Shown here piece after piece: positions 8,374-57,600 of a stretch of DNA of 64,000 nucleotides (its first letter is position 1; every line of letters begins with the position of its first letter). The position numbers and the translations under genes are program-made. This stretch comes from Capsaspora owczarzaki ATCC 30864 (lineage: Eukaryota; Opisthokonta; Filasterea), in contig NW_011887292.1 in NCBI RefSeq assembly GCF_000151315.2, positions 847,534-911,533 of the forward strand, given 5' to 3'. The notes beneath the pieces are model-generated. The model was given only the letters and a program-made list of their open reading frames with translations. It did not search any database and was not told the DNA's origin.

Positions 8374-9522
8374 ATGTTCCGTGAAATCACCGCCGACGCC
8401 GAGCTCGAAGCGATGGAGCGCCACTGCCTCGAGCACCGCGGGCATTACGGATTGCGCATGGGCTATGTCTTGCACAATGCCAGGCGCGGACGCGTGCCCA
8501 CTGCTCGCTTCTACGCCGACCTGGGAGACGTGACTGCCGGCCGATTTGCCGCTGCTGCGCATGGCGCTGGCACCACCGAGCCGGGTTCGTCACCGACCTC
8601 TGCCGCGAGTCCTAAGAGTGGCGGCGAGAGTGCTGCGTGCACAATGATCATCATGGTGCACCCGACGGCCGACGAAGACACGATCGCGCTCGACGCGACC
8701 ACTCCGGAGGCTGCGCGCGTGCTCATTCACGAGCACTTGACAAACTTTACACTGCTTGGCATTGCGCATCCAAGCAACCCGCAACGACCACGACGGAGCA
8801 TTACATTCTCTGGCTTTGACGATGCCCACTTTACTGAAAACATTCGCCAAGTCTTCCCTCAAGAGTCAGGATTCGTGCTCAAATACCAGTTGAGTGGATT
8901 GTTTTTTGTTGTTGTTGTCGTTCTGAGGTTTTTTTTCCCTTGTACATTCTAAGTGGATGCTGCTGACGACTCACTTTGATTTGCCGCTACAAAAACCCTC
9001 ATTTCTCTGTGCGGAATGCACCATGAAACGTTTCGCTTACACTTCGATCACAGTCCTTGCAAAATGTACTCGGCAACCAACCCAGCGCTCTTTGCGCCAG
9101 AGCTGTACTTGCCCAAGCTCCAAGCGGGATGGACGTTGGGGCCGCTTCGCGCCGAGGACGCGCCGATGGTCAATCAATTGTGGCCCTACTCGTCGCCCGG
9201 CACGCTGGGATTTATCGCAGACCTGATTACCACCTACCCTTCCATGTGTCTGTTTGTCGACGGCACGCCTGCATGCTGGTGCCTCACCCAAAACTACGGC
9301 GCCATGGGCATGCTGCACACAAAGGACGAGTTTAAGCGGCAGGGTCTCGGGAAGATTGTCATGATGGCGCTGTCGCAACATCTCCACTCCAAAAACCACG
9401 TCCCGTTCTTGTATGTCGTTCATCCCAACACCGCCTCTCACGGGCTCTTCAAGTCACTCAATTTCCCTCAAGAAGACCGCGACCAGAGCTGGCTGCTCGT
9501 GCATCCCCCAAAAGACCAATAG
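8374..9522 (+). CDS. GNAT-fold N-acyltransferase, GLYAT-like
   Basis: Two exons, 8374-8888 and 9054-9522, give about 327 residues. The proposed junction uses CA|GTTGAG and a CACAG acceptor; it keeps frame but the donor is weak. The N-terminal half resembles the regulatory half of glycine N-acyltransferases. The C-terminal half has the GNAT pattern: VDGTPACWCL, GAMGMLHTKDEFKRQGLGK with the acyl-CoA-binding R/Q-x-x-G-x-G loop, then NTASHGLFKSLNF. Animal GLYAT enzymes conjugate acyl-CoA with glycine or glutamine for detoxification. The amino-acid acceptor here is unknown. A low-complexity Ser/Pro/Gly insert lies near residues 68-90. Confidence 0.65.
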
Positions 9523-9648: not shown

Positions 9649-12600
9649 TTACGGCTTTCCACGCTGCTTGACCCATTTGAGCGTGCACGACTGACAGCGG
9701 GGACTTTTTTCGTGCGCGTAGAAGGTTTGGTCGGCCAATGGCGTCTTGCAGTCCTGTTCGAAGCGAAAGCAAAAGCAAAAACAAAAACAAAATGCACAAT
9801 GAAATTGCAGCCTTGCGAATGGAGCACCCCGCCCGCCATTCGTCCATTCCAACTCCTCGCACACCCCAGCAAACAAACCTACCTGGCACACAAAACACGC
9901 GACATGCCACCGACTGCCGAGCGCGGAAACGACCTCGTCCAGGATTTGCTTTTTGCAGGCATGGCAGGAGGCGAAAAACTTGGCTGCATAGTCTGCTTCG
10001 CAGTACGGGAATCCATTGCGGCTGAGGAAATCTTGGTCCTTGAGATTCTTCTTGCAAACCTCGCAGTTGAAGCACTCTTGATGCCATTGGTTGTCGATCG
10101 CAAACACCATTTCGCCGACAATGGGAAGCCTGCATTTGAAGCAGCGCTTGCCAAACATCTCGTAATAGTCCTTCTCGCAGTACGGATGGCCCTTGTGCTC
10201 AATGTATGGGGTGAGCTCGAAAGGCATCTTGCACTTGCGGCAGCCAAAGTGGTCGTAGTGCCATTTGCGCCCGCAGGCAAGCAACCACGTTTCACCGCCT
10301 TCTTCGTCGACAGCCACGCCGCATCCGCCGCACGTATCTTCGCCAAAGACGCCGGGGGAGTCGGGGAGCGATGCCAGTGAGGAAGAGCTGGAGGCCGTGA
10401 TGGGCAACGAGGTCGCGCTTCCAGCACCGGGGCGTTTGGGGTAGGCGAGGGTCTGGCTGGACTTGAGGAGGCTGGAGGTACTCGGTCGCTTGACGTTCAT
10501 GAGGGTCATGGAGCGTGTCGAGCCGATCGCCGGCACTTCGTCCGAGCCCAAGCGGCGCTCGAGGTTGATTGAGTTCATGCGCTCGAGCTTGGCCGTGCTC
10601 ATGGGCGATCGGCTCGGGGCCGGGTAGACCGCTTCTGCGCCAGAGTCGCCCAGCTCACCAAGCAGATCGCTGAGATGCTTGCGCGCAGTGACAGAGGGCC
10701 GGAACTTGTCTGACTCTGTTGGAAGCTTCTTAAAGATGCGTCCAGACAGGGCGCTGGGCAGAATCTGCACCAAGCGCTCGGTCGTGTCGAGTTCCTTGAA
10801 GCGGAAGGAGCCAAGATCCGTCAGCACGGGCACGAATGCAGCAAAGGCTCCAGCATCCAGTGCTGGCCGAATGTCGTCAGACACTGAGCCGCTGACCACG
10901 ACCTGTCCGCCGTCAGTCAACTCGCTCACGCGTGCAGCGCGGTTGACCATCGGACCAAAGTAGTCCATGCGCTCGACCACGGGGTCGGTTTCGCTCTCGG
11001 GCGAGCCGCTGTGCACACCCATGCGGATGGACAGGCCGCGCTGCAGCAGCTGGCCATCGGGAGACCGGCGCTCCCAGCAGTACTGCGAGTCGAGCAGCTC
11101 TTTGGGCCAATCGAGCGTCAAAAGCAGCGTCTGCGTCTCAAGACACCACTTGACGGCATCTTCGGAGCGTTGGAAGGCAACCATGAACGCATCACCCTCC
11201 GTCTTGACCTCGTAGCCCTTGTGCACACGAATCGCGCGGCGCATGCAGTCCTTGTAAAGCTTGACTGCCGCGCGCATTGCGTCCGGAATCGCGTGCCAGA
11301 GCTGCAGCGAGTGCTGTACGTCTGCAAACACAATCGCCACGTGCCCTTGCGGGGGAGGCACTTCAGCGTTCTGCTTGTCAAGCATGAGGTTGAACACGAG
11401 TTTGACATTCTCGTCGTTGGTGGGCTTGCGCCGCTTTTGGGCGAGCTCAAACGTCCGTGCCCGCAGCAGCAGCGGCAACACCTGGAACAAGGTCTCCTCG
11501 CTGCCCAAGCCCTTGAGCTTGAAGCTGCCGAGCTCGACGTAAACAGGGTCGAAGAGCTTGAGCTCATCGGCCAGAGCACGGCAATCCTCCATGGCCGACC
11601 GGGACATGACAATCTGGCCGCCCTCGGCCACAGACGAGACTCGCGCAGCGCGATTGACGACAGGGCCAAAGTAGTCCATGCGGTAGGTGATGGGATCGGG
11701 CTCGCAATCGGGCTCGCCCGTGTGAATGCCCATGCGCACCCGCAAGCCTCGAAAGACGGTGTTGTTGTCGCCATCAAACACTTGCGAGTACCCGTCAAGG
11801 GCAAGGATCTCTTCGGGCCAGTTGACACTGAGCAAGTCGAGCTGGGCAATGAGGCAGAACTTGACAGCATCGACCGCGCGTTGGAAGGCAATCATGAACG
11901 CGTCGCCCTCCGTCTTGACCTCGTAGCCGTTGCAGACCTGCATGGCACTGCGCATGACATGGTTGTGCATCTTGACGGCCGCGCGGGTGAGGACGGGGTC
12001 GCGCTCCCAGAGTGCAGACGAGTTTTCAATATCGGTGAAAATGAGCGTGACGCGGCCCGTTGGCGGTGCGACCATCTTGCTGTAGCGACGCGGATGCACT
12101 GGCGCCGAGGGCTGAGCGAGCGTGCTCGAAGAAGCCGCCGCCGCCGCCACAGCAGCAGTAGCAACTGCAGCAGCGGCACCAGATGCGGGTCGATTGGCCG
12201 CAGAGACGGCAGCGAGTGCTGCGGCCAATGTTGCAGCAGCCGTGGCAGCGGGTCCTTCGCCCGCCGCGCCAGCAGCCGCAGCCGCAATCACAGCCGCAAA
12301 AGTCGGGGCAGGAATAGAGCGGGTGCGCGACGCCTCAAGCGTGTTTAGCTGGTTTTTGGACCGCACTTTGCGCGAGAGCGTGCGGCTGAAGGCCGTGGAA
12401 AAGCGACCCAACGACGCGTCTTCCAGCCGCCAGGTGACGAGCTCGGCGTCCAGAGAGTCGATGCCCTGGGTCAGCGTGCGCAAGGTGCGGACCACGACAA
12501 AGGCCGAGTCAATCATGTACTGCACGGCTACTTCGCGATGCTGGGTGGCGGTCGCCGCACGGCTAGCCGCCTGGCGCAACACAATCATGTTGTCACACAG

Positions 12601-15600
12601 GAACTCGCGTGATTCAAAAATGGTCGCGACCGTGTCTGGAGCAGTTTGCTCGAGATTCAGTGCGTTGATCAGACCCACAACTTTGCCAACCGAGTCGGCG
12701 AGCGACGACGCCAGCGTCGTGAACGTATCGCGTTTGGACTGGTCTGCGTTGGCCTTGAGCTGGCGGACGCCTTCGACAATCTCGTCAATGAGGGTTTCGA
12801 GACGATTGTTAAACTCGCTACCGGGACCAATGCGAGTTTCTTCGCTGGTGGCCAAGTTTTGCGAGCTGCCAAAACTAGTACTGCCCAGCTCCGAGTGGCT
12901 GCTCGATGCGCGACTGACAGTCCCGACCTTCAGTTGATTTGCATTGGAAGAGGCAGTGGGTTCGGTTGGGCTGCTTGATCGAGGGGCCGATGGGGCCGAC
13001 GAGGCCGCCAAAGTGGCCGCACCGCCATTGGTCGATTCCGACGCTTGCCTGCTGTGCGCCGGCGAGACCGAGAGTTCGGCTCCTGTGTCAGCAGGCTCAA
13101 ACGAGGACATGGCTGCATCGCTCGCATTCACTTGCAAGCCCATCATGTTCTGGGCCTTGTCGCTCAGGTAGAAGGCCGTTGGGTCGTGCTTGGCGCACCG
13201 AATGTTGTCGTCGATGCACGCCAGAACGGACAGGACGTGTTCAAGCCGCGCGATGGCACGCAGGCTCAGCACCGGCAGGCCGAGCGCCAATGCAGTGGCA
13301 GCCGTTGCGGTGGTGGAAGGAGCAGAGTCGGGCGCGCCACTCTCGCTGGTCATCACGGCAATGCAGCCAGCCAGACCGGAGAGCTCGGGCTCGGACGCTG
13401 CGTCGAGGGAGAACTGGAAGAGGCGGTAAATGTTGGCCAACTCTCGCTCGAGATCAATGGCGGCAGCGTTGTTGATGGCCGCCATGCTGCTCATTTCGCC
13501 ATTCTCGAGAGAAAAGTCCCCAGAAGCAGTCGCGAGCGAGGTGGTAAACTTGCGAAGGCGGGCTCGCGTTGGGCCCATGAATGAGCTGGCAAAACCATAC
13601 CCTTCGCGAGCATCCCGCAGATGGTGCGTCTCGGCCGTCACGTGCAAAATGCGGGCAACCAGCACGAGAGTGTACACGTTTCGCTCGCTGCTTGGGTGGA
13701 CGCCATACGCACGCGGCCGCTCCAGCGCATTGCACAGGAAGCGCGTAAAGAAGAGCTCGTTGACCACCTTGTCCGCAAGCTGCTGTGCGCGCGAAGCCGA
13801 CATTTCGCTGCCGAGCCGGTCAAGGGCCAAGCGTTGCAGATGGCACAGGACGAGTCGGAGGCCAGCAGGACACTCGTCGAGTGAGTGGACGACAGCATCG
13901 ACCACTGATTTGCAAATGGCCTCGAGCGGCTTCCAGTGCTTGCGGATGGTGGCCACCATGTCGTCGCCTTTTGTTGGGGCAATCTTGCCAAACGTGTGCA
14001 GCTGTCGAAGGAGCGACCGCAAGATGCCAGAAATGTAGTCCTTGCCAACGACGCGCATGTACGATTCGATAAACTGGGCAGTGATGGACAAGTCGCCCAG
14101 GAGTGTGGTCGAAGCAACGGTTGCGCCACCTGTTACGCCACCAATGTAGCCCATGGGAGCGGTTGCGCTTGTGCTGCCGGCGAGTGCACTCATCATGGTG
14201 GAGGTGGAGCTGCTGAGACTGAGCGTGCTGGCAGCGCCAGAGGACAATGTCACTGCGGACGCGCTATTGTTTGCGCCAAACCCGTCCAAGTTTTTGTTGG
14301 AGCTGGAGCTGACCAAGTAGGCCGTGACCTCAATGTTCACGGCAGCTTTCAGGAAGGAGAGGGCAAGATCCTGCGTCTCAAAGACGGCCATGACGGAGTC
14401 GGAGAAGGACTTGGACTCGGCGCAGCGCGCTGCAAACGCAAGCACTGCTGGAGTCGTCAAGGTAAAGACCCCAGCCCCTGGCTGCTGTTGTTGCGAGCCA
14501 CTGCCAATCAGGCTTGTCCGTCGTCGCTTGCTCGCAGCGTCCATTTTGGACGAAGCGGGCAGAATGTTGAGGGGAGCAGCCTTGTTTTCGCCGACGTGAC
14601 CAGGAACGAAAAGTTTGAGCAAATCTTGGTAGCACTCCAGTGGCAAAATCTTGTTAAAGGTGGTGTAGTAGTTGACGTGCATGGTGCCAAGACCAAAGGC
14701 GCTCGCGCGCTTGTTCTTGTCGGCCTTGTCCTTCTTTTTGTCCGTCTTGCGCTGGAGAATGCACGAGAGCTCGGAGGTCACGTTCGGCGCAAGACCCGCG
14801 AGCGGCAGCATGCCAGCGGCGTGCTGGGTATCTCCCGAGAAGGTTGCGGCCTCGTACAGGTTGATTTCAAGCCAGTGCGCCTCTGGGGTGAGGTGGAGTG
14901 GGAAGGTGAACGTCTCGTTGAAGGAAGGGCTGGTGTCCTTGGAGACTTTGGTCTTGACAACGCCGTCCTTGCCGTCGATCGAGCGAGACCGCTGGTGGCC
15001 GCCACCCATAGGCGCATGCTGGGGCATGAGGCGCAGGGACAGATAGAGGCCTTTCGCCTTGGCAATCGTCGTCTGCGCATCCACGACGCGCACGGTGATT
15101 CCGCGCGGCGCTGAGGGATGGACGGTGATTTCAACCCGGACCTTGGCTGGCGGTTGCTGATCGGGCATCTCGAGGAAGAGCCACTCGTCGTGAACGGCCT
15201 GTTGGGTGCGCGGGATGGACGACTGCCGTGCGAGCACGTCGAGATTCTCGCTGAGCCGTCTGCTGCTCCGTGCGGAGGACGAGTTGGACGGTGAAAGCGA
15301 GCTGTTGAGTGCCGTCATTGCAGCGATCGCACCGCCAGCGACCGAGGTACTCGAGCTGACGTGCGACAGCGCTGCTGGAGTGGCTGCGCCCGACGCGGAT
15401 GCCGGCGATTCATAGGCACTCTCGCTCATGGTTTCGGATTCGCCGATGAGCGATTCACGCGCGAAATCGGCGCTGCCAATGTCGAGTCCGTGCTTTTCGT
15501 CGCGGACTGAGATGACGAGGTTTGTAAATCCAGCGGCAGTGATGGTGAATGCCTGGGTGGGCAGCCAGTGGACCTCGGTCGATGCCGCGCTCAATGCGAC

Positions 15601-15747
15601 GCTCGTGCTGTCCTGCTCGACGCCATCGAGCAGCACCGCCGCGCGGAGTGGCGAGGACTCTGACCCCGGCGGGAACTGCTTGCCCTCGAGCGCCTGGAAG
15701 ACGATGAGTGGCTCTGAGCGGAGGAGGCTCCGTGTTGCCTCGCTCAT
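9649..15747 (-). CDS. Giant signalling protein: C2, RasGAP-like, two class III cyclase domains, three LIM domains
   Basis: Two exons (15747-9883 and 9753-9649) give about 1,989 residues; the intron interrupts the last LIM domain (CFVCQ|DCKTPL). Approximate order: C2 domain 208-320; RasGAP-like region 426-725 with TTLLGDLSITAQFIESYM and FFTRFLCNALERP; an Ala/Ser-rich linker; cyclase domain 1 at 1230-1385 (FTDIENSSALW, KTEGDAFMIAF, DYFGPVVNRAARVS); cyclase domain 2 at 1462-1625 (FADVQHSLQLW, KTEGDAFMVAF, DYFGPMVNRAARVS); three LIM zinc modules 1802-1988. Both cyclase domains keep the two metal Asp, the Lys before TEGD and the Asn/Arg pair, so adenylate cyclase activity is plausible; they look most like fungal adenylate cyclase. 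The RasGAP loop lacks the arginine finger (FRGNS replaced by LGDLS). LIM domains suggest a cytoskeletal partner. The start is the first Met before homologous sequence; the frame is open further upstream. Confidence 0.88.
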   Translation of the reverse strand: MSEATRSLLRSEPLIVFQALEGKQFPPGSESSPLRAAVLLDGVEQDSTSVALSAASTEVHWLPTQAFTITAAGFTNLVISVRDEKHGLDIGSADFARESLIGESETMSESAYESPASASGAATPAALSHVSSSTSVAGGAIAAMTALNSSLSPSNSSSARSSRRLSENLDVLARQSSIPRTQQAVHDEWLFLEMPDQQPPAKVRVEITVHPSAPRGITVRVVDAQTTIAKAKGLYLSLRLMPQHAPMGGGHQRSRSIDGKDGVVKTKVSKDTSPSFNETFTFPLHLTPEAHWLEINLYEAATFSGDTQHAAGMLPLAGLAPNVTSELSCILQRKTDKKKDKADKNKRASAFGLGTMHVNYYTTFNKILPLECYQDLLKLFVPGHVGENKAAPLNILPASSKMDAASKRRRTSLIGSGSQQQQPGAGVFTLTTPAVLAFAARCAESKSFSDSVMAVFETQDLALSFLKAAVNIEVTAYLVSSSSNKNLDGFGANNSASAVTLSSGAASTLSLSSSTSTMMSALAGSTSATAPMGYIGGVTGGATVASTTLLGDLSITAQFIESYMRVVGKDYISGILRSLLRQLHTFGKIAPTKGDDMVATIRKHWKPLEAICKSVVDAVVHSLDECPAGLRLVLCHLQRLALDRLGSEMSASRAQQLADKVVNELFFTRFLCNALERPRAYGVHPSSERNVYTLVLVARILHVTAETHHLRDAREGYGFASSFMGPTRARLRKFTTSLATASGDFSLENGEMSSMAAINNAAAIDLERELANIYRLFQFSLDAASEPELSGLAGCIAVMTSESGAPDSAPSTTATAATALALGLPVLSLRAIARLEHVLSVLACIDDNIRCAKHDPTAFYLSDKAQNMMGLQVNASDAAMSSFEPADTGAELSVSPAHSRQASESTNGGAATLAASSAPSAPRSSSPTEPTASSNANQLKVGTVSRASSSHSELGSTSFGSSQNLATSEETRIGPGSEFNNRLETLIDEIVEGVRQLKANADQSKRDTFTTLASSLADSVGKVVGLINALNLEQTAPDTVATIFESREFLCDNMIVLRQAASRAATATQHREVAVQYMIDSAFVVVRTLRTLTQGIDSLDAELVTWRLEDASLGRFSTAFSRTLSRKVRSKNQLNTLEASRTRSIPAPTFAAVIAAAAAGAAGEGPAATAAATLAAALAAVSAANRPASGAAAAVATAAVAAAAASSSTLAQPSAPVHPRRYSKMVAPPTGRVTLIFTDIENSSALWERDPVLTRAAVKMHNHVMRSAMQVCNGYEVKTEGDAFMIAFQRAVDAVKFCLIAQLDLLSVNWPEEILALDGYSQVFDGDNNTVFRGLRVRMGIHTGEPDCEPDPITYRMDYFGPVVNRAARVSSVAEGGQIVMSRSAMEDCRALADELKLFDPVYVELGSFKLKGLGSEETLFQVLPLLLRARTFELAQKRRKPTNDENVKLVFNLMLDKQNAEVPPPQGHVAIVFADVQHSLQLWHAIPDAMRAAVKLYKDCMRRAIRVHKGYEVKTEGDAFMVAFQRSEDAVKWCLETQTLLLTLDWPKELLDSQYCWERRSPDGQLLQRGLSIRMGVHSGSPESETDPVVERMDYFGPMVNRAARVSELTDGGQVVVSGSVSDDIRPALDAGAFAAFVPVLTDLGSFRFKELDTTERLVQILPSALSGRIFKKLPTESDKFRPSVTARKHLSDLLGELGDSGAEAVYPAPSRSPMSTAKLERMNSINLERRLGSDEVPAIGSTRSMTLMNVKRPSTSSLLKSSQTLAYPKRPGAGSATSLPITASSSSSLASLPDSPGVFGEDTCGGCGVAVDEEGGETWLLACGRKWHYDHFGCRKCKMPFELTPYIEHKGHPYCEKDYYEMFGKRCFKCRLPIVGEMVFAIDNQWHQECFNCEVCKKNLKDQDFLSRNGFPYCEADYAAKFFASCHACKKQILDEVVSALGSRWHVACFVCQVGLFAGVCEELEWTNGGRGAPFARLQFHCAFCFCFCFCFRFEQDCKTPLADQTFYAHEKSPRCQSCTLKWVKQRGKP

Positions 15748-16818
15748 CTTGGGTTCGTGTTGGTGTAGAAGTGGTGTGTGTGTGCTGATGAAACGCAGGA
15801 TTTTGTCTTGTTTTCTGGTCAAGAATAGAAACCAGTCTTGCCTTTGCGGGTCTTGTTCAAGTTCTGTATGACAGGGAAAGGAGTGGAGGAGAGGAGAGAG
15901 GAGAGAGGAGAGGAGGGAGAACGGAGAGAAGGATTTGAGTTTCAGATTGCAGGAGCATGGGTTTTTGTCCAGAGCACTGCGCAAGGATTTGAGTTTCAGA
16001 TTGCAGGAGCATGGGTTTTTGTCCAGAGCACTGCGCACCCAGACTTGGTGGAAAGAGAGAGAGAGAAAGGAGTGAAGAGAAGAGAAGAGGGAAGCGGATG
16101 GAGATAGAGCGCGAGAGAGAGGCGGGATGGGGATTGAATGGAGCGAAAGAACACACAAAGCGAAAAAAATAAAATAAAAAATAATAATAATAAAATATAA
16201 ACCCACACAACAACAACGCAAAATACTGAAATCTGGTGCGATGGAGATTGGATCACAATGCTGGATGATGGATGATGTTGGATGGATGATGATGAGTATG
16301 GCAAAGTGATCTCAAAGAGGGGAGAGAGAACGAGAGCGAAGAGACAGAGATGGAAAAGTGTGTGTGTGTGGAAGGATTGTGGTTGACATGGAATTAAAAA
16401 ATAAAATAAAATAAAAATCCAATACAAAAAGCATACCTAAAAAAAAAAAAAAAAAAAAAAAAAAGAATGACAGAGGGTAACTGGAAAAAAAAAAAGCCAT
16501 CAGAACAAGCAAAAGCACGAGGAGGGATCCGAACAAGAACAGCAATCTGTCATGATGATAAAAGCAACAGCGAAAACAAAAGCGAAACAAGAAGGAAAGG
16601 CAGAGAGAACAATGGAAATGGGGGCATGGATCTCGCAGACACACACATCCGCCACACGCACGATCTCCTCTCAACAACACACACCTGCCCCCCCCCCAAT
16701 TGCCACTGCGTACCTGTGCACCTGGTCCTACAACATCGTCGTGAACATTGGAAAACACACACACTCACACACACATGCGACTATTGAAAAAACGACATGC
16801 TCATTCATTTTTTCAACA
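15748..16818. promoter_or_regulatory. Divergent upstream region between the cyclase fusion gene (-) and the AAAP transporter (+)
   Basis: About 1.07 kb lies between two divergent starts. It holds GA-rich purine tracts (15885-15930 and 16050-16120), a 54-bp tandem duplication, AT-rich runs near 16165-16200 and 16395-16420, and an A-run at 16438-16464. CA-repeats lie at 16640-16790. No domain-bearing frame was found. Promoter function is inferred from position. Confidence 0.4.
15929..16036. repeat. Perfect 54-bp tandem duplication
   Basis: Two identical 54-base units, 15929-15982 and 15983-16036, each running from AAGGATTTGAG to AGAGCACTGCGC. They lie in the 5' flank of the cyclase fusion gene. 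The lack of any difference suggests a recent local duplication. Confidence 0.95.
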
Positions 16819-26419: not shown

Positions 26420-26691
26420 TTTTTTTTTAAGTTTGTGTGTATTCGTCGGTTTTTTTTTTCCTTGTTGTTGTCAGCCGTGGTTTCTTTGCGGGCGAATGTT
26501 GGCGTTGTGTTGTGTGTGTGTCGGTTTCTGTCTTTGTGTGTGTCTGTCATCCATCTTATATTGCTTTGGTTTTTCGAATGGCGTATGTTATGCACTATTC
26601 TATTTTATTCGTTTGGCCCTGCATGCAGATCTCACTCTTTGTTTCACACAAGCTGAGCTGTTGAGTGTTCAAGCAAAACACAGAGCGACGA

Positions 26692-29600
26692 ATGCGGCGG
26701 CAGCGCTCGCTGTCCCCGTCTCGCGATGACCCGCATTCAAGCAGCAACCTCTCGTCTGACGCTATCGCAGACGATCTGATTGACCTGACGACATGGCCGT
26801 CGCCCGACCCAAAGCGCGTGTGCATGTCTCTGCGTGAAACAACACGCTCCGCTGCAAGTCCACCCAGCAGTGCCGCCACGCGATTGCTCTCCGGCGCCTC
26901 AAGTGTCTCGAGTGTCTCAAGTGTCTCAAGTGTCTCAAGTGGTTGGATGGGCACGTCAGGCCATACGCATCCGTCGGCGCTCACCACACCAACGCGGCGT
27001 TCGCTCGCTTTGCCGCGCGTTCCAATCTCAAGCTCCGAAACCACAACCGCGGTTGAGCGCACTTCTCAAGACGACCACTCGTCAGTCGCTCCTCCCAGTG
27101 CTGTGGTTACACCAGTCAGGACGAACACGGCTCCAGTGTCAGACTCGAGCGTGCGCACTGCTCCATCACAATCACGCGTGGCCATTCGCAGTAGTCGGAC
27201 TGATGACGGATTGTCGACCACCTCCACGCCCTCAACCAGACGTGCTGCATCCGCACCTGCAGCCGCAGCGAGGCGGCCGTCATCTCCGCCTTCTGGGATG
27301 GTCGCACAGCCGGCTGCGTCTCCCGCTGGCCCTGCCAAGTCGCCGATTTCAAGTATTGCGCATCGCTTGCTCGCTCAGCCTGCCGTCAAGATGACGGAAT
27401 GTCCCGCGTGCTCGCGCCAAGTGCGCCTTGCTCTGCTCAACAAGCACCTGGATACAGACTGCGAGTCGAGCGAGCAAGCACGACTGCGGCGACAACGAGA
27501 AGCAGAGATGGAAGCGGACGCCAAATCTTGGCTTTCCTACATGGGAGAGGGCTTGGATGGAGCTGGCGGGCAGCATCGCCAACAGTGTAGTGTATGTCAC
27601 TCTTCAGGATGTCTCGAGGAGTGCACAGGTGAGCGTTGGACGCGAGAGCTGCTCGGAAAGATTGCTGCGCACAAACTTGCAAGCGAAATTGCGGTGCCCC
27701 AAGAGGTCTTGGAGCAGTCATCAGTCCCCAATGAGAAAGCTGGAGATGTGCAGTCGCTCCAAGATGTACCAGCTCCAACCGATGCGACTGAGGTGCCCCA
27801 AAATGACACCACCACTGCGCGACCTCGTTACTACCAGCGCGACTTCCTCCTGGTCGTTCGCGACATTTGCTCCAGCTCCCACTACGAACTGTGGTTTAAT
27901 GAACTCGAGCGACGGCTAGTTGGCTGCTTTTTCGGACTGTCTGGTGAGGTTCTGTTTTTTTTTTTTTTGTTTTTTTTTTTTCCCTTGAAGCGGGGTTGCT
28001 GCCCGTTGCTTACTATGTCTGTGCCATCATTTCATTGGGGTTTTCTACATGCAGATGCGTCTCAGAAGCTCTTTATTCGCATGTTCAATCGCAAAGCCGG
28101 CTGGTTTCGTGCCGCCAAAATCGAGTATGACGAAATTCCAGATGTTCCCGCTGCACTAAGCGAGCTGACGCAGAATTCACTTGTCACGGATGGTAAGAGA
28201 ATCATTGGATTGCTGTTTGTTATTGTCTCGTTGGCTGGTCCTGAACGAAAAGCACTTTGTTGTAGATTCTGCATTGGAGCTGGACGAAACATTGGATTTG
28301 CTGGATTTGGGCGATTTGAAAACCCTCTGCTCCCACTTTCGTTTGCCCGCACCTGCTCAGCTGACCAGGAAGGTACGTCTTGCCTTTTCTAGCAATCGTC
28401 GAATTTGTTCATGCTCGCTGACTTTTTTTTTTTTGTTTTTGTTCTTGTTGTTGTTGTTGTTGTTGTTGTTGTGATCAAACACCTCAACCGTTGATTAGGG
28501 TCGGATTGACGCCCTTTTTTCATTCTGCCAGACGCAACGAAGCGTGCTAGGTGAGAGTCCGCACGGCCGCTTGCTCCGACAGGCCAAGCTACTATGCGGA
28601 CACGCGTTTCGGCTCAGCCCATCGGCCAAGTCGCTGTTCCGGCGAATGCACATTGTCTTTTTCAAGGTCACTACCATGGAAGAATTGTCCTTCCCCACAC
28701 TGCTCTTTACAACCAAAGGTCTAGTGTCGTTTCCCAAAGTCACGCTCGATATGTCCGTCCCGCTGTATGACTCGCGCGAGCATCTGGCCCTGTTTGAAGA
28801 ATTTCTGGACGCCGAAAGCCAGATGGAAACGATTGTGATGAGTGGCGGATCCCTGGAGGATATTCGACCCTTCTACGAGCGTGCTTGGCAGTATGTTCAA
28901 CGCGTTCTCGACTCTCCCAAAGTTCCAACGACAGCCACCGCCGCTCTGGAAGCCAGCGCGATCCGACCTCCTTTCGTCGAATTGTTTCACCCTGGCACCG
29001 TGTGTCTCCGTATTCTGGCCATGTGGACGGATGCATTGGAACGACAGCGACGATTTCCGGAGGCGGTTCAGCTTTTGCAATGGATGCTCGCCCAACGGCG
29101 ATTCTGCACCGATCAGCGTGGAAAGTGGTACGATCGGCTTGCGCTGGACTTGGAGCGGCATTTGGCTCGACCGTCAGATGCGCTTGACACGTGCCAGCGC
29201 GCGATTCGCGATCCCTTTGTGCGTTCTGGGCATCTCCTGGCCATTCGGCAGCGGGCCGTCCGTCTCTGCAAGAGCAAAAACTATCCGCAGCTGCACCATC
29301 GCTTGTCGGAATTTGCCCGCGTCCAGTTGTTCGGGGCCGCAGTGGTTCAGATTGCAGCGACCCAGATTGAAACCGAAGATTCGGAAGCCGCAGCGCGGGG
29401 TGCGCAGGGTTTGTCGTTTGTCCAGCAGCGCGCAAATCGCTTGCTCGAGCGGCTGCACTCGCCGTTTCGAGTCTACCGACAAGACGTCTCGAGTAGTGGC
29501 ACTGCGGAATCAAAAAGCGGTGACGTGACGGAAGATGTGATTGACTCGTCCGCCTCGAGCAGCGACGACGACGACGACGAGGAGCATGATCAGCATGCGC

Positions 29601-30280
29601 CCATTCGCACCAAAAGCAAGGCGGGACCTGGTCGTGTCATCTACCTCAGCGCTGACGGCGACGGCTTGTGCGATGTGGAGCAAACTGCACTCAACCATTA
29701 CGCGAGCACGGAGGGCTGGAAGGGAGTCCATGGCGAGAATGGCATTGTGACAACCTTGTTTGGCCTGCTGGTGTGGGACATTCTCTTTTGGGATGGCGTG
29801 CCGGGGGTGTTTCAATCGCGGTACCAAGCTGCCCCGTTGGATTTGCGGACGGACGGATTTTTCCGTGCTCGACGGTCCTTGCTGATGCATCGCATCCACG
29901 CGCTCGCCACGGGTGTCATCCAACCAAGCGACCTTGTCGCGCTCCACTGGGACGAGCATTGTGGCGAAACCTGCGTTGCCGTTCAATGGTCTGCGTACTC
30001 GCGACAAGATTTGATGGACATGGCCAGCTGCCTTGGTGGTCAAGTGCTGGCTGGAATTTGCGATGTACTGGCGCGTGACTTTCGACATCGCGCTGGAGGG
30101 CTGCCCGATCTTCTCCTGTGGGATCCGAGTCGCCGAGCTGCTCGTTTTGTGGAAGTGAAGAGCGAGAACGACAAGTTGGCGCACAAGCAGCATGTTTGGA
30201 TTCATGTTCTCCGAATGTTAGGTGCCCAAGTGGATGTTTGCAAGGTCAAGAGCCACAATGGTCGCTCACTTGGCAAGTGA
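26692..30280 (+). CDS. FAN1: Fanconi-associated nuclease FAN1
   Basis: Four exons keep frame: 26692-27943, 28055-28192, 28266-28372, 28499-30280 (1,092 residues; human 1,017). A UBZ4-type zinc finger lies near residue 235 (CPACSRQVRLALLNKHLDTDC, i.e. C-x2-C and H-x3-C). The middle matches the FAN1 SAP/TPR region. The C-terminal VRR_NUC nuclease has EGWKGVHGENGIVTTLFGLL and the PD...EVK core (PDLLLWDPS then FVEVKSEND). FAN1 is a structure-specific 5' flap nuclease recruited by ubiquitinated FANCD2 to unhook interstrand crosslinks. The N-terminal third is Ser-rich and holds a 9-bp repeat (26897-26940) coding an SSV repeat. An acidic SSDDDDDEEH patch lies near residue 850. Start choice: first ATG in the open frame. 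Confidence 0.94.
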
Positions 30281-51698: not shown

Positions 51699-54600
51699 TC
51701 ACAACATGTCAGATTCCTTTGGTGTTTTGGCGGGCTTGGCTGCCGTTGGAGGTGGCTAAGAAAGGGACAAACCAAAGCAGGATAAACACACAACCAAGTC
51801 AGTTTCTGCATCATGGCAACACTTTTCTCGACATAACGTGACTTACTCGACGCGCAGCAGGCTGTGGCTTCACCAGCTCCTGAAAAACGAGAAAAAATCA
51901 AGAAACAACAAGATCGCAGAACATGAGCGTCAGGATTTCGAAATAAATCCTGAAAAGAGCATCGAAAGACTGCCGCATACCTCTGCTGGGGCAGGCTCTT
52001 CACTCGGCTCTGGCGTTCCCTCGTCGGGTGCGGCAATCCCCGCGGCTTCTTCCTCGGCGCGCCGGGCAGCTTCCTGCTTGCGCTTGCGGATGAGTTCGCT
52101 TGCAGCCATCTGGCTTTGAAGCTGAGGGTTGAACACGGACGGTCTCGCGACGGGGGCAGGAGCAGGAGCTGCGGCAGGTTCGGGCGCCGCGGCAGCAGCA
52201 GCAGCAGCAGCAGCAACTGGTTGTTCAATGCCACTCTCAAAGTCGGCCGCTTCGTCTTCGGTGAGCTCCACGGCAGCAGCAGTCGGTTTCGGCGCAGGGA
52301 CTGGAGGCAGCTTTTTCGGGAGGGTCGGAGGCGGTTTGGCGGCCACGGCTGGGGAGGTAGGTGTGGTCGGGGAAGCGGAACCACTTTCGCCGCCGTCCTT
52401 GCTGGGGGCTTTGACAGGAAGGAGCGGGACTTTCGGAGCCGGCAAAGGTTTGGCTGCGGGCTGAGGCTTGTCTGCGGGCACGGGCTTGTTCGCAGGAACG
52501 GGTTTGTCAGCGGGCTGCGGCTTTTCGGCGGGCTGCGGCTTTTCAGCGGGTGCAGGCCGCGGCATGGGAGTCGGAACAGGCTTCTTTGCGACAGCAACGG
52601 CGCTTGCTTCGTCAGAAGAGCCAGAGGTCGGGGTCGAAGCGGTTGCCGACGAAGGAGTGGTCGGCGTAACAGGAGTGCTGTCCGTGCTGATTGGCGTGAG
52701 CGAAGGGCGAGCGGCAGGGATTGGCAGCACCGACATGGCACCTGGCGGCGGCTTTCGCAGCGTGCCTGGAGCCGTTCCGCCGACAATGTTGGAAAGGCTT
52801 TCGACCAGAGACTCTTTGCGCGCGGCAAAGGAGTGCCCGACGACGGCAGCCGGAGTGCCATCAACCAGCGACTCCTTGCGCGACGGCGGGGCAGATGTCG
52901 TTGCGTCGTCGGATACGGAAACTCCACGCGAAATCACCTTGGGCTTGGCAGCCACCGGAGGAGGCGCCTGCGCTGCTGTGGGTGACGGGACTGGAACTGC
53001 TGCATCCGAGATCGAGCCGCGGGCGGGTGCGGATTGAGTGGCGATTGCTGCAGCTTTTGTTTCGGATGCGTTTGTGTCGAGCACCGTTGCGGTCGATGGG
53101 CGGCGCGGCTGCGGAGTCGGGGCGGCGGCTTTCGGGCTTTCTGTTGGCTGCGCTGGGGCCACTACGTGTTCGGCGGCAAGCGGTGGTTGCGCTGGCTCTG
53201 CGGGTGGCGCCGCTACTGGGACTGGCTCTGCCACTGGCCCGGCTGCTGGTTCCGCCGCTTTATCTGCGACTGGCTCGGGAATCGACTTGGGTGCTGCCGT
53301 AGGAGGGTTTACCTCAACGTGCGACTGGGGTTGAGTTTCAGGAGACGCGTCGTCGCTGGAAGCGGGATGCGCTGCTGCCGCCGATGGAACGACAGGAGAC
53401 TCAGCGACTGGCGAGGCGTCAATCGGCTCGGCCGACTTCAATGTCTCGGCAGATTCGGTTGGAGCAGGGGTGTCGGGCTCCTTGGACTCGACATTCTGCT
53501 CCACGTTTGGCTCAGACTCGGATGTGGACTCTGGTTCAGGCTCGACCTGCACAGGCTCTGGTTCCGAACGCGGCGGAGGAACATCATCTGAATCATCAGC
53601 ACTCTGGGCGACCTCGGCGGGCGGAGGTGGCGGCGGAACATCCTCTTCCGGAGGCGGGGGTGGAACTTCTTCGGCAACAGCCGGAGGTGGGGGCACGTCG
53701 TCGTCTTCGGGCGCGGGAGGAGGCGGAATAGAATCGTCATCTTCCAGCGGTGCGGGCGGAGGAGGAATGGATTCGTCCGCCGCAGCAGGAGCGACTGTCG
53801 ACGGAGGAGCAGCGACCGTCGGCGGAGGAGCAGCGACCGTCGGCGGAGGTGCAGCGACAGTCGGCGGAGCAACAACCACTGAAAGTGCTGTAACCGGTGC
53901 AGGCGCAGCAGCAGACTCACTCGCACCTGCGGCAGCAGCAGCCGCTGCAGGACCAGGAACTGTCTCAACTTCGGGTTTCTTGGGGGCACCATCGGTGGAA
54001 CGACGCCAAACATTGGCGTTTGTCGTGGCAATTTCCAGCGCCTCGTGGGAAATGGAGGGTGCAGCTGCAGTGGCGGCAGTTGCAGCAACGGAAGCATGAG
54101 ACTGAGCCGCTGCTGCCGCTGGGGACAAGGTCTTGGGAGCGGTTGCCGTCGGTGTCGAAAGAGTTGTACCGGAAGCTGGCACTTCGCCTTGATCGACGCT
54201 TGTCGAAATGAGCGATGCGCTGGTCGTGGGAACACGGACAGACGTGGGACGCACCGAAGTACGCCTGGACAGCTTGGACGCCGCGGTGTCTGTCGGCAAT
54301 CCTCGCGACGGCGCCTTCGGGCGGGCGTCGCTATTGCCCGGCGGCTCGAGGAGTGTCGGAACTGCCGATGCGGGTGCAGAGGCCTCCTTAGGCTTGGGTG
54401 GAGCAGCATCTGCCGGCTCGGCAATCTTGGGTGCTTCTGTGCTGGGTTTCGTGGTGTCCTTTTCCTTTTCCTTTTCCTTTTCCTTTTCCTTTTCCTTTTC
54501 CTTTTCCTTTTCCTTTTCCTTGGTCTTGTCCTTTTTGCCAAACAGCGCTCCAAGGCCTTTCTTTTCCTTGTCGGGCTTGTCTTGTGAGACGACGGCGGGC

Positions 54601-57600
54601 TGCGATTTGCGAGTCACAGGTGCTTTGCCCTCTTCGTCCTCGTCGTCCTCAACAGGCGTCGCGGAAGCTTTGACAGAAGCTGCGGCTGTCGATGCAGGAG
54701 GAGCAGCCACCGCTGGAGGAGCAGCCACAACTGGGGCAGCAGCCACAACTGGAGCAGCCACCGCTGGAGGAGCAGCCACAACTGGAACGGACGCAACGAG
54801 ATCCATTTTCGCTGCCGACACTGCAACCGCTCGACTTGTGTCATCGTCGTCGTCGTCTTGATTGTCCTTGGAGGGTCGCATTGCCTGCCGCGTGGGCGGT
54901 CGCCGGGGAGCTCCAATCTTGGCGCGAGTTTTTGTGAGATGCACGAGCTTGTCGTCAGTGGGAAGAGCCTCCGTGGGCAGTTCAATGCTCGCTTGAGTGG
55001 CAAGCGCGGGCGCCGCCGTGCGAACGACAGCGTCCACGTCAACAGATCCCCTGGCGGGGGTCTCCTTCAGCGCCGCCGCCGCAGCAACGGTAGCACTCGA
55101 GCCTCGCGAGATGCTCGGAGCGCGCATGGACGCTCGCTGCGAATGGGCAGTACCAAGCGCAGTCTCGCCAGCGCTGACAATCAACTCGAGCGAATCACAC
55201 ACGCGCTCATACAGAAAGTCCGACACAATGTTGGTCAACGAAATGTTGACTGCCTGCATTTTGCGGGCGACTTCGGCTCCGGCCGCCTTGACCAGCACTG
55301 CCGTCAGAAAGTCCTCGTCGATCTTGTCAGCATCGACCTGGACGCCGAGATTCAGGTGCACGAGCGCACGGCTGTCAATCAGATTGGGGTAGTCGTTGTG
55401 CAGCGCTTGCACCAGTCCCGAAGCAAACAGCTGGAAGTTGTCTTCCGTAATTTCGTGCATGGACTGCACCATGGCCGACAGATGACCGACAAGAGCGTTC
55501 ACACCCGACTGCTGGGCCTCCTCTTGCAAAAAGTGGATTTGCGTCAGAATGGAGCTGTGCGCTTTGGCTTCGGCAATCAGGGCCTCGACAGCGAGAGGAG
55601 CGCCCACAACGTTTTCACCCTGCTGGACGGACACGGGCACAACTTCCAGTGATTTGCCTTCGTGCGTCTCGCTGTACTGCACGGCCAGATGCGCAGCCTT
55701 GGTGCACATTGTGTCGATATACTCTTGCTTGGCAGCGTTCGCCACTGGCCCAGAGCCGAAATTGTACAAGGACTGGGCCGTGAGCGTTTTGGGCGCTTGG
55801 TTTTTGTATAGCGCCTGCTCGAGCTGCTGCACAACGCTGACGCAATCCGGGTTCTTGATGAGGGTTGAAATATCCACGATCGGCAACGGCATGTGCGTCA
55901 AGGTTGAGTTGCGGTTGAGCGCCGCAACCACCATCTTGAGCGACGCAACCGTGGTCGCGTTGTCATCCCAGTGCAGATTGGTCAGCGTTGTGTTGGTCTG
56001 CAGCGCTTTGGCAAGGCCCTGTGCACCGAGCTCGCCCATCTGGTTGCCGCCAATGTTCAAGCGAAGCAGCGTGGTGTTGGCACCGAGCGCGTCCAAAATG
56101 GGCACAATGTCGCCCTTCAGCTTGCAGTCACAGAGCGAAAGGGATTGGATGGCGCTCTGGCTGCCCACCAACAAGTCCACGACCGAGCGGATGGCGGACG
56201 GACGCTCCTTGGTTTTGCGTTCAAAGCTCTTGTCCAGCAGCACATGACGCAGAGTGCTGTTGTAGCAAAGACCGCTCACAAACGAGCTCATGCCATCGTC
56301 CCCAAAGTCATTGTCACTCACGTCCAACGTGACGATGGTTTGCACCTTGGCCATCATGCTTCCGACAATGCGGGCGCCAGCGATGCCCAACTCGTTGCCT
56401 CGCACATTCAGCGACAGTTCAGAGACGAGCTGGTTGTTGTGCAACGCGTTGGAGAGGTTTTTCAGCGCCGAGTGTGGCAGCTTGGTGTTGGCGAGGTTGA
56501 TATCGCGGAGCTGAGCAGCGCACTGGAAGAATTGCTCCTGTGAAGAAGTGCGGCGGAATCGTGAGCATCTCACTCGAAACGGGTTCAAAAAAAAAGGCTC
56601 GACATGAATCAAAACCACACTTGCACAGCTGGCTTACAAAACTGGCGGGCGGAATATAGCTCTTGGGATCCTTCTTGGACGCAAAACGGTTTCCCGACAA
56701 GTTGATGGAGACAAGGGTTTGTGCACAGCCACGGAGAAGAGCGGCAAACAGAGGGTCGACGATAATTCCAGAATCGGACAGGTCGAGCTGTGTCAGGACG
56801 TTGGGCACGGCCAAAAAGTCGGCCAGCGCGCTCACGCCCTCGCCAATGTTGTTATTGCTCAGATTCAGTCGCGACAACGAGCTGAGGGTGTTGACGTTCT
56901 TTTTGATGCCTTGAAGGAATCCGGCGATGCCTGTTGCGCCACAACGTAACAGATTATTTTTGTTTCGAGTGAGGCAACCAAGCGCAGTAACAACAGGGCA
57001 GAGCAAAAACCGCGATCGGGTCGGGTCGCTGTACCTTTGGCAGTTGTGCCAGTGCTGGAAAGGTTCAACTCCAGGATGCCGGCAGTCATGTTGCCGAATG
57101 CAGCGCCGAGACTAGATAAGGCTGTTAGTGGGGGATGGCATGAAAAATGAAAAGTGGTTGAGTCGGGGATTTGCTCCAATGGTTTCTGTCTGAGCAACAA
57201 CCAAAACAAAACACAAAAAAAAACAGAAGGTCAAAAGCACCTACCTTTGTCATCAATGGTGTTTCGGGAAAGATCCACCGTTCGGATCGAGGAGGAAGGA
57301 TTCTTCATCAACCCGTCCGCCAGCGCGGCGAAAAAGTCCTTGTACGCGCTCGCGTTGGAAACGACAATCTCTGTCAAAAATTGAGACTTGTTCACGACGC
57401 CTGCGACGGAGGCAAGACCATCGGCGTTCAGTTTGACGTCACGGACAATCAGGCGCGTAAACCACGAGTTGAAGCTCAGGGCGCGGACGATCGCGACCAG
57501 GTCGTTGCCGTCGAGATTGTCAAACTCTTCCAGGTTGAAATCTTTGGTGCCGCTGGCAGCAAAAATGTTGTCAATGTCCCAGCAGACGTCCTCGCGGACG

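Follow-up and report, generated by a model that had tools for sequence, protein, structure and literature searches.

A single gene on the minus strand of the window, the whole 64,000-nucleotide stretch of the Capsaspora owczarzaki genome analyzed here (contig C1, 847534-911533), encodes C2 regions, a RasGAP-like part, two tandem class III cyclase domains and three LIM domains in one protein. This domain order is real and recurs in a paralog on a second contig (C5). The domains are known but their combination is new, and undescribed as far as the open-licence PMC literature shows among the matches listed, in keeping with the original prediction that no described protein has this order. We propose, with a probability of roughly 55%, that the polypeptide works as an adenylate cyclase anchored on a membrane and adhesion scaffold. 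The RasGAP-like part has lost its arginine finger and is probably non-catalytic.

One gene and its paralog

Pfam searches of the unspliced translation detected C2 (5.4e-6), RasGAP (PF00616, 4.7e-11), Guanylate_cyc in two stretches (PF00211, 7.2e-49) and LIM in three stretches (PF00412, 1.3e-26). The C2, RasGAP-like, dual cyclase and triple LIM composition first read from the sequence is thereby confirmed, including the RasGAP and C2 folds on whose detection by profile search that reading had been staked. The gene occupies a minus-strand frame of 2190 codons without a stop (16221-9649), the listed start of which (16221) is TTG; the earliest in-frame ATG is at 15747, and from there the unspliced frame has 2032 codons ahead of the stop. 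GC content at third positions is 0.48 wholly upstream of this ATG, 0.66 in the bin across it and 0.64-0.82 per bin inside the gene, the exceptions being an Ala-rich stretch (0.54) and the last bin (0.59). The original prediction of one continuous frame holds in that 15747-9649 is one gene, but a GT-AG intron of 129 bases, read from the sequence, is predicted to split LIM3. The gene was seen as a single continuous frame because this intron keeps the frame; splicing it out gives a protein of 1989 residues in which the LIM3 ligand pattern is complete, so that all three LIM domains have their zinc ligands.

The paralog was found by searching the organism's own genome (27,456,641 bases in 29 contigs) for RasGAP and cyclase matches, which on contig C5 lie adjacent on one strand. 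Its gene model, joined by frame reading, comprises nine predicted exons with eight GT-AG introns and encodes 1773 residues, in which Pfam identifies C2 twice, RasGAP in two stretches (1.6e-25), two cyclase domains and three LIMs. By blastp, the window protein and its paralog share 35% identity over 861 aligned positions in the cyclase-to-LIM part (4e-136) and 23% over 163 positions in the RasGAP part (4e-8). The chief argument for a real fusion is that the same order recurs at an unlinked locus whose intron pattern differs. This recurrence, together with the length of the open frame and its mostly coding-like composition, makes it scarcely credible that two or three adjacent genes have been joined by chance read-through.

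The first C2-like region (residues ~14-195), a degenerate one, has no Pfam match; its assignment comes from visual inspection and from the two C2 stretches of the paralog. In view of these two stretches, a C2-C2-RasGAP front is more probable for the window protein than the single-C2 layout of SynGAP. The SynGAP/RASAL-like C2 plus RasGAP front originally proposed is thus borne out in its affinity, as no solved structure other than SynGAP matches the C2-RasGAP part at E <= 0.1, but probably not in its layout.

Cyr1-type cyclases and a RasGAP fold without its finger

Judged by sequence, the window cyclases are of the fungal Cyr1 type. Fourteen cyclase matches in the organism's genome merge into seven genes, two of which (the window gene and its paralog) have tandem cyclases with LIMs. 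The closest other cyclase genes are C3:807k (L032), a single frame of which contains LRR, PP2C and cyclase by Pfam, and C7:836k (L031), in which two adjacent frames with RA (RA_3 6.5e-24; RA 1.3e-9) and LRR plus PP2C precede the cyclase frames; both layouts match the Cyr1 plan (RA-LRR-PP2C-adenylate cyclase). In a tree limited to the organism's own domains and 53 prokaryotic relatives, the six own Cyr1-type domains cluster apart from the bacterial rows at 85/73, a moderate support, with their internal order unsettled. Cyclase domains of this type, 33-53% identical to those of the window, also occur in prokaryote records (L053-L108), mostly metagenome-assembled genomes and one labelled archaeal; L065 and L087 each have two such places. 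These records hint that the Cyr1 cyclase may have come from bacteria.

Catalysis by class III cyclases involves two metal-binding Asp residues, a base-selecting Lys and Asp, and a transition-state Asn and Arg. The set is complete in both cyclase domains of the window protein. In the paralog, domain 1 has Arg in place of Asn and domain 2 is altered at all six positions; C3:807k has Glu for Asp (TEGE) and C7:836k has Ala for Arg (NRAAA). With catalytic residues altered, the C3 and C7 cyclases may be weak or inactive, and the window gene, alone among these four in having the full set, is likely the productive one. According to PMC12002173, Cyr1 is kept in unicellular holozoans, with C. owczarzaki drawn in its architecture figure, and class III cyclases act as dimers. 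A tandem pair would come already assembled, in contrast to the recruitment-and-dimerization idea presented there for Cyr1.

The RasGAP Pfam match of the window protein, although over the cut-off, spans profile positions 101-203 only, the first half of the domain having diverged, and a Ser/Thr/Ala-rich insert of ~65 residues stands directly ahead of the finger loop. The leading solved RasGAP relatives of the paralog are SynGAP and p120GAP. Where the catalytic arginine finger would stand, the alignment has Gly551 in the window protein and Gln in the paralog, with the same result from a profile built without the paralog. The paralog's Gln stands opposite the Arg of SynGAP and p120GAP; the window protein's SynGAP alignment starts three residues past the finger. 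At least 22 RasGAP matches in the organism's genome were reduced to at least 17 genes by merging adjacent exons, and 15 other RasGAP genes were aligned to a profile made from three of them and the paralog, some of them weakly (C2:1688k, 12.8 bits; C1:188k, 18.3 bits). Arg occupies the finger column in 12 of these 15, the exceptions being C1:188k (Glu), C3:832k (His, then Arg) and C16:73k (Gln). It is this loss of the finger in both paralogs, set against its retention by most other RasGAP genes of the genome, that leads us to regard the part as probably a non-catalytic pseudo-RasGAP. Beyond the window gene and its paralog, three RasGAP genes without a clear arginine finger (L043, L045 and L046) have no cyclase match at their loci. 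An IQGAP-like gene (L034, C3:2384500-2387000; IQ and RasGAP by Pfam) has a YYR motif and Arg at the finger column, whereas human IQGAPs have Thr there (PMC9408373).

The position of the RasGAP motif FLRXXXPAXXXP (PMC12871552) reads FTRFLCNALERP in the window protein and FTRLLCPAMMGP in the paralog. The former departs from the motif, FLR having become FTR and PA having become NA, and the helix after FLR has diverged too. The bearing of these losses on GTPase binding is mixed when judged by analogy: in IQGAP, a RasGAP fold that lacks the catalytic arginine serves as a pseudo-GAP within a scaffold (PMC9408373, PMC12871552), whereas IqgC of Dictyostelium no longer binds RasG once its finger or its FLR motif is mutated (PMC12871552). 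Of the Ras-binding GAP fold initially suggested, Pfam upholds the fold, while the missing finger, the altered motif and the IqgC mutants speak against the binding.

The LIM tail and its adhesion context

The solved structures closest to LIM2-LIM3 of the window protein are paxillin (9.8e-24) and PINCH (4.9e-19), a likeness that suggests a possible cytoskeletal role for the LIM tail. Ahead of the cyclases, a four-helix bundle is predicted from the single sequence, with predicted local distance difference test (pLDDT) values of 61-88 in ten-residue blocks and 51 in the last block. FAT domains of Pyk2 or FAK occupy six of the ten top Foldseek rows for this bundle (E ~0.01). GIT1_C matches it at 0.0093 scanned alone and 0.092 in the whole protein, and matches the paralog at 0.04, all below the cut-off. 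Aligned by hhalign to the organism's own GIT and FAK domains, the bundle scores 21.2 and 18.0, the best of 60 shuffles each reaching 19.4 and 17.5. The likeness to FAT and GIT is weak and at most suggestive.

Between the cyclases and the LIMs, LSDLLGEL agrees with the inverse LD motif as defined in PMC7703752, a match spotted after the fact. Ahead of their LIMs, the paralog (FDDVLRAI) and a further gene, L109 (IDDVLSML), both fit the strict LD-type pattern, which shuffles reach in 0.8% and 4.9% of cases, respectively. L109 (C3:1705500-1712000) has the design PH-RasGAP-PH with an intact finger, the LD-type motif and then at least three LIM matches, without a cyclase; the placing of all its LIM exons in one gene is our reading. 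Its design would mean that RasGAPs were joined to LIM tails more than once in this genome. The genome also matches integrin beta, T-box, GIT1_C (8.1e-23) and Focal_AT (7.6e-9), and we count the integrin beta, the GIT-type and FAK-type helical domains and L109 as an adhesion context favoring the proposed function.

Features of the cyclase gene in window coordinates, listed in the direction of transcription
Feature	Position	Strand	Basis
Whole coding region including one intron: C2-like, C2, pseudo-RasGAP (probable), helical bundle, CYC1, CYC2, LIM1-3	9649..15747	-	1989 residues when spliced
First C2-like region, residues 14-195	15163..15708	-	By eye and position of the paralog's first C2
C2 domain, residues ~215-330 (Pfam core 260-307)	14758..15105	-	Pfam
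RasGAP-like domain, residues ~432-760 (Pfam 597-702; SynGAP match 554-740)	13468..14454	-	Pfam, SynGAP alignment
Gly551, column of the catalytic arginine finger	14095..14097	-	Profile alignment
FTR, residues 667-669, in place of the FLR motif	13741..13749	-	Alignment; motif definition of PMC12871552
Predicted four-helix bundle, residues ~975-1103, weakly FAT/GIT1_C-like	12439..12825	-	Single-sequence prediction
Class III cyclase domain 1, Cyr1 type; D1239, K1278, D1282, D1358, N1365, R1369 present	11440..12069	-	Pfam, alignment
Class III cyclase domain 2, Cyr1 type; D1476, K1515, D1519, D1595, N1602, R1606 present	10723..11352	-	Pfam, alignment
Inverse-LD-like motif LSDLLGEL, residues 1692-1699	10651..10674	-	Motif definition of PMC7703752
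LIM1	10156..10332	-	Pfam
LIM2	9976..10143	-	Pfam
LIM3, exon 1 portion (remainder in exon 2)	9883..9966	-	Pfam and splicing
Predicted in-frame GT-AG intron within LIM3	9754..9882	-	Sequence reading
Exon 2: end of LIM3, C-terminus, stop codon	9649..9753	-	Sequence reading

Upstream of the ATG, the presumed 5' leader contains a tandem duplication of ~50 bases (window 15930-16035). Convergent with the cyclase gene and ending near its 3' end is a GNAT or glycine acyltransferase-like gene (9016-9522, plus strand). Elsewhere in the window are a FAN1-type nuclease in two open frames (26665-30280, plus strand; FAN1_HTH, and FAN1_TPR with VRR_NUC) and a minus-strand frame of 1562 codons (51930-56618) with a leucine-rich repeat as its sole Pfam match at E <= 0.001.

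Proposed function and comparison with known systems

In the function we propose, the two cyclase domains would fold onto one another as a built-in pair, forming two composite sites and producing cAMP, and the C2 regions would supply membrane contact. The RasGAP-like part would not speed GTP hydrolysis; occupying the position that the RA domain has in Cyr1, it would instead offer a surface for docking or regulation, with a Ras, Rap or Rho-family GTPase as a possible partner. IQGAP provides a precedent for a finger-less RasGAP fold within a scaffold (PMC9408373). Together, the helical bundle, the LD-like motif and the LIM tail would direct the making of cAMP to integrin-type adhesions or to actin structures. 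In a more elaborate version, which we consider unlikely, the protein would be a GTPase-regulated adenylate cyclase of a new kind: the pseudo-RasGAP reads an active small GTPase without ending its signal and controls a preassembled Cyr1-type pair fixed at integrin adhesions by the LIM, FAT-like and LD elements, so that the adhesion itself becomes the site of cAMP production, the degenerate paralog acting as a non-producing competitor or partner.

Several observations weigh against the main proposal. The paralog cyclases look inactive, so that cAMP synthesis would not be a retained feature of the architecture. Since IqgC needs both its finger and FLR, and the helix after FLR has diverged in the window protein, the RasGAP-like part may, by analogy, bind no GTPase; the binding of CDC42 by the GAP-related domain of IQGAP1 is weak and does not depend on the nucleotide (PMC9408373), and the single-sequence model of the window RasGAP region is of low confidence (mean pLDDT 36.6). 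For the helical bundle, Foldseek gave no match at E <= 0.001, designed bundles score as high, and vinculin tail and p130Cas are intermixed with the FAT domains; the hhalign probabilities for the GIT and FAK domains are low (5.5 and 1.5%), and a PDB profile search with the bundle found no FAT domain. The motif LSDLLGEL fails the strict LD pattern, and the lax pattern is reached by 8.3% of shuffles.

The rival explanations differ mainly in what they make of the RasGAP-like part. It is a real possibility that this part is a vestige or structural spacer, the protein being simply a LIM-anchored cyclase under the control of C2 contacts, phosphorylation or oligomer state. The unmatched half of the RasGAP profile, the low-complexity insert ahead of the finger loop and the poor conservation of the part between the paralogs are all consistent with this reading, but the domain has been retained in both genes and that of the paralog still scores well against Pfam. 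Somewhat more doubtful is a true effector, binding GTP-loaded Ras, Rap or Rho without hydrolysis and activating or recruiting the cyclase, as a second Ras-cAMP route beside Cyr1. In its favor, the fold outlived the finger in both paralogs, the LVA(K/R) stretch is conserved, as is the Arg of FLR, and the cyclases are of the type that Ras activates in yeast (PMC12002173), so that the Ras control of fungal adenylate cyclase invoked in the original prediction is pertinent here. The changes to FTR and NA, the divergence of the next helix and the lost Ras binding of IqgC without finger or FLR count against it. A working GAP using another residue as its finger is very unlikely, as the window protein has no Arg in its aligned finger loop, which follows the long insert.

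Animals lost Cyr1, the Ras-controlled cyclase (PMC12002173), and without it still use cAMP and integrin adhesion signaling. Should our proposal of a cyclase anchored on a membrane and adhesion scaffold be correct, small-GTPase sensing, cAMP synthesis and adhesion targeting would be wired into one polypeptide in a unicellular relative of animals, and a RasGAP fold would have been converted from a signal terminator to a docking part. Genetic tools exist for Capsaspora, allowing direct tests of both genes.

LIM proteins of Capsaspora with kinase or RapGAP domains have been published (PMC3305314), and the word cyclase is absent from the main text of that paper. Paxillin and PINCH are the best solved matches of LIM2-LIM3, but here the three LIMs end an enzyme and are accompanied by one inverse-LD-like motif only. 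With the GAP-related domain of IQGAP the window protein shares a RasGAP fold that lacks the catalytic arginine (PMC9408373, PMC12871552); it differs in its finger residues, in having no IQ or CH match by Pfam and in being joined to an enzyme. The succession of C2 and RasGAP is that of SynGAP and p120GAP, the best solved matches, from which the window protein is set apart by the missing arginine finger, FTR for FLR, the insert before the finger, and the cyclases and LIMs that follow. The nearest solved cyclase structures are those of trypanosome GRESAG4 (1fx4 and 1fx2, ~1e-28), cyclases of receptor type with one cyclase domain, as opposed to two here. The cyclase type itself is shared with Cyr1, the window domains grouping with those of the two LRR-PP2C genes of the same genome; in place of RA, LRR and PP2C, for which there is no Pfam match at E <= 1, the window protein has tandem cyclases together with C2, RasGAP-like and LIM parts.

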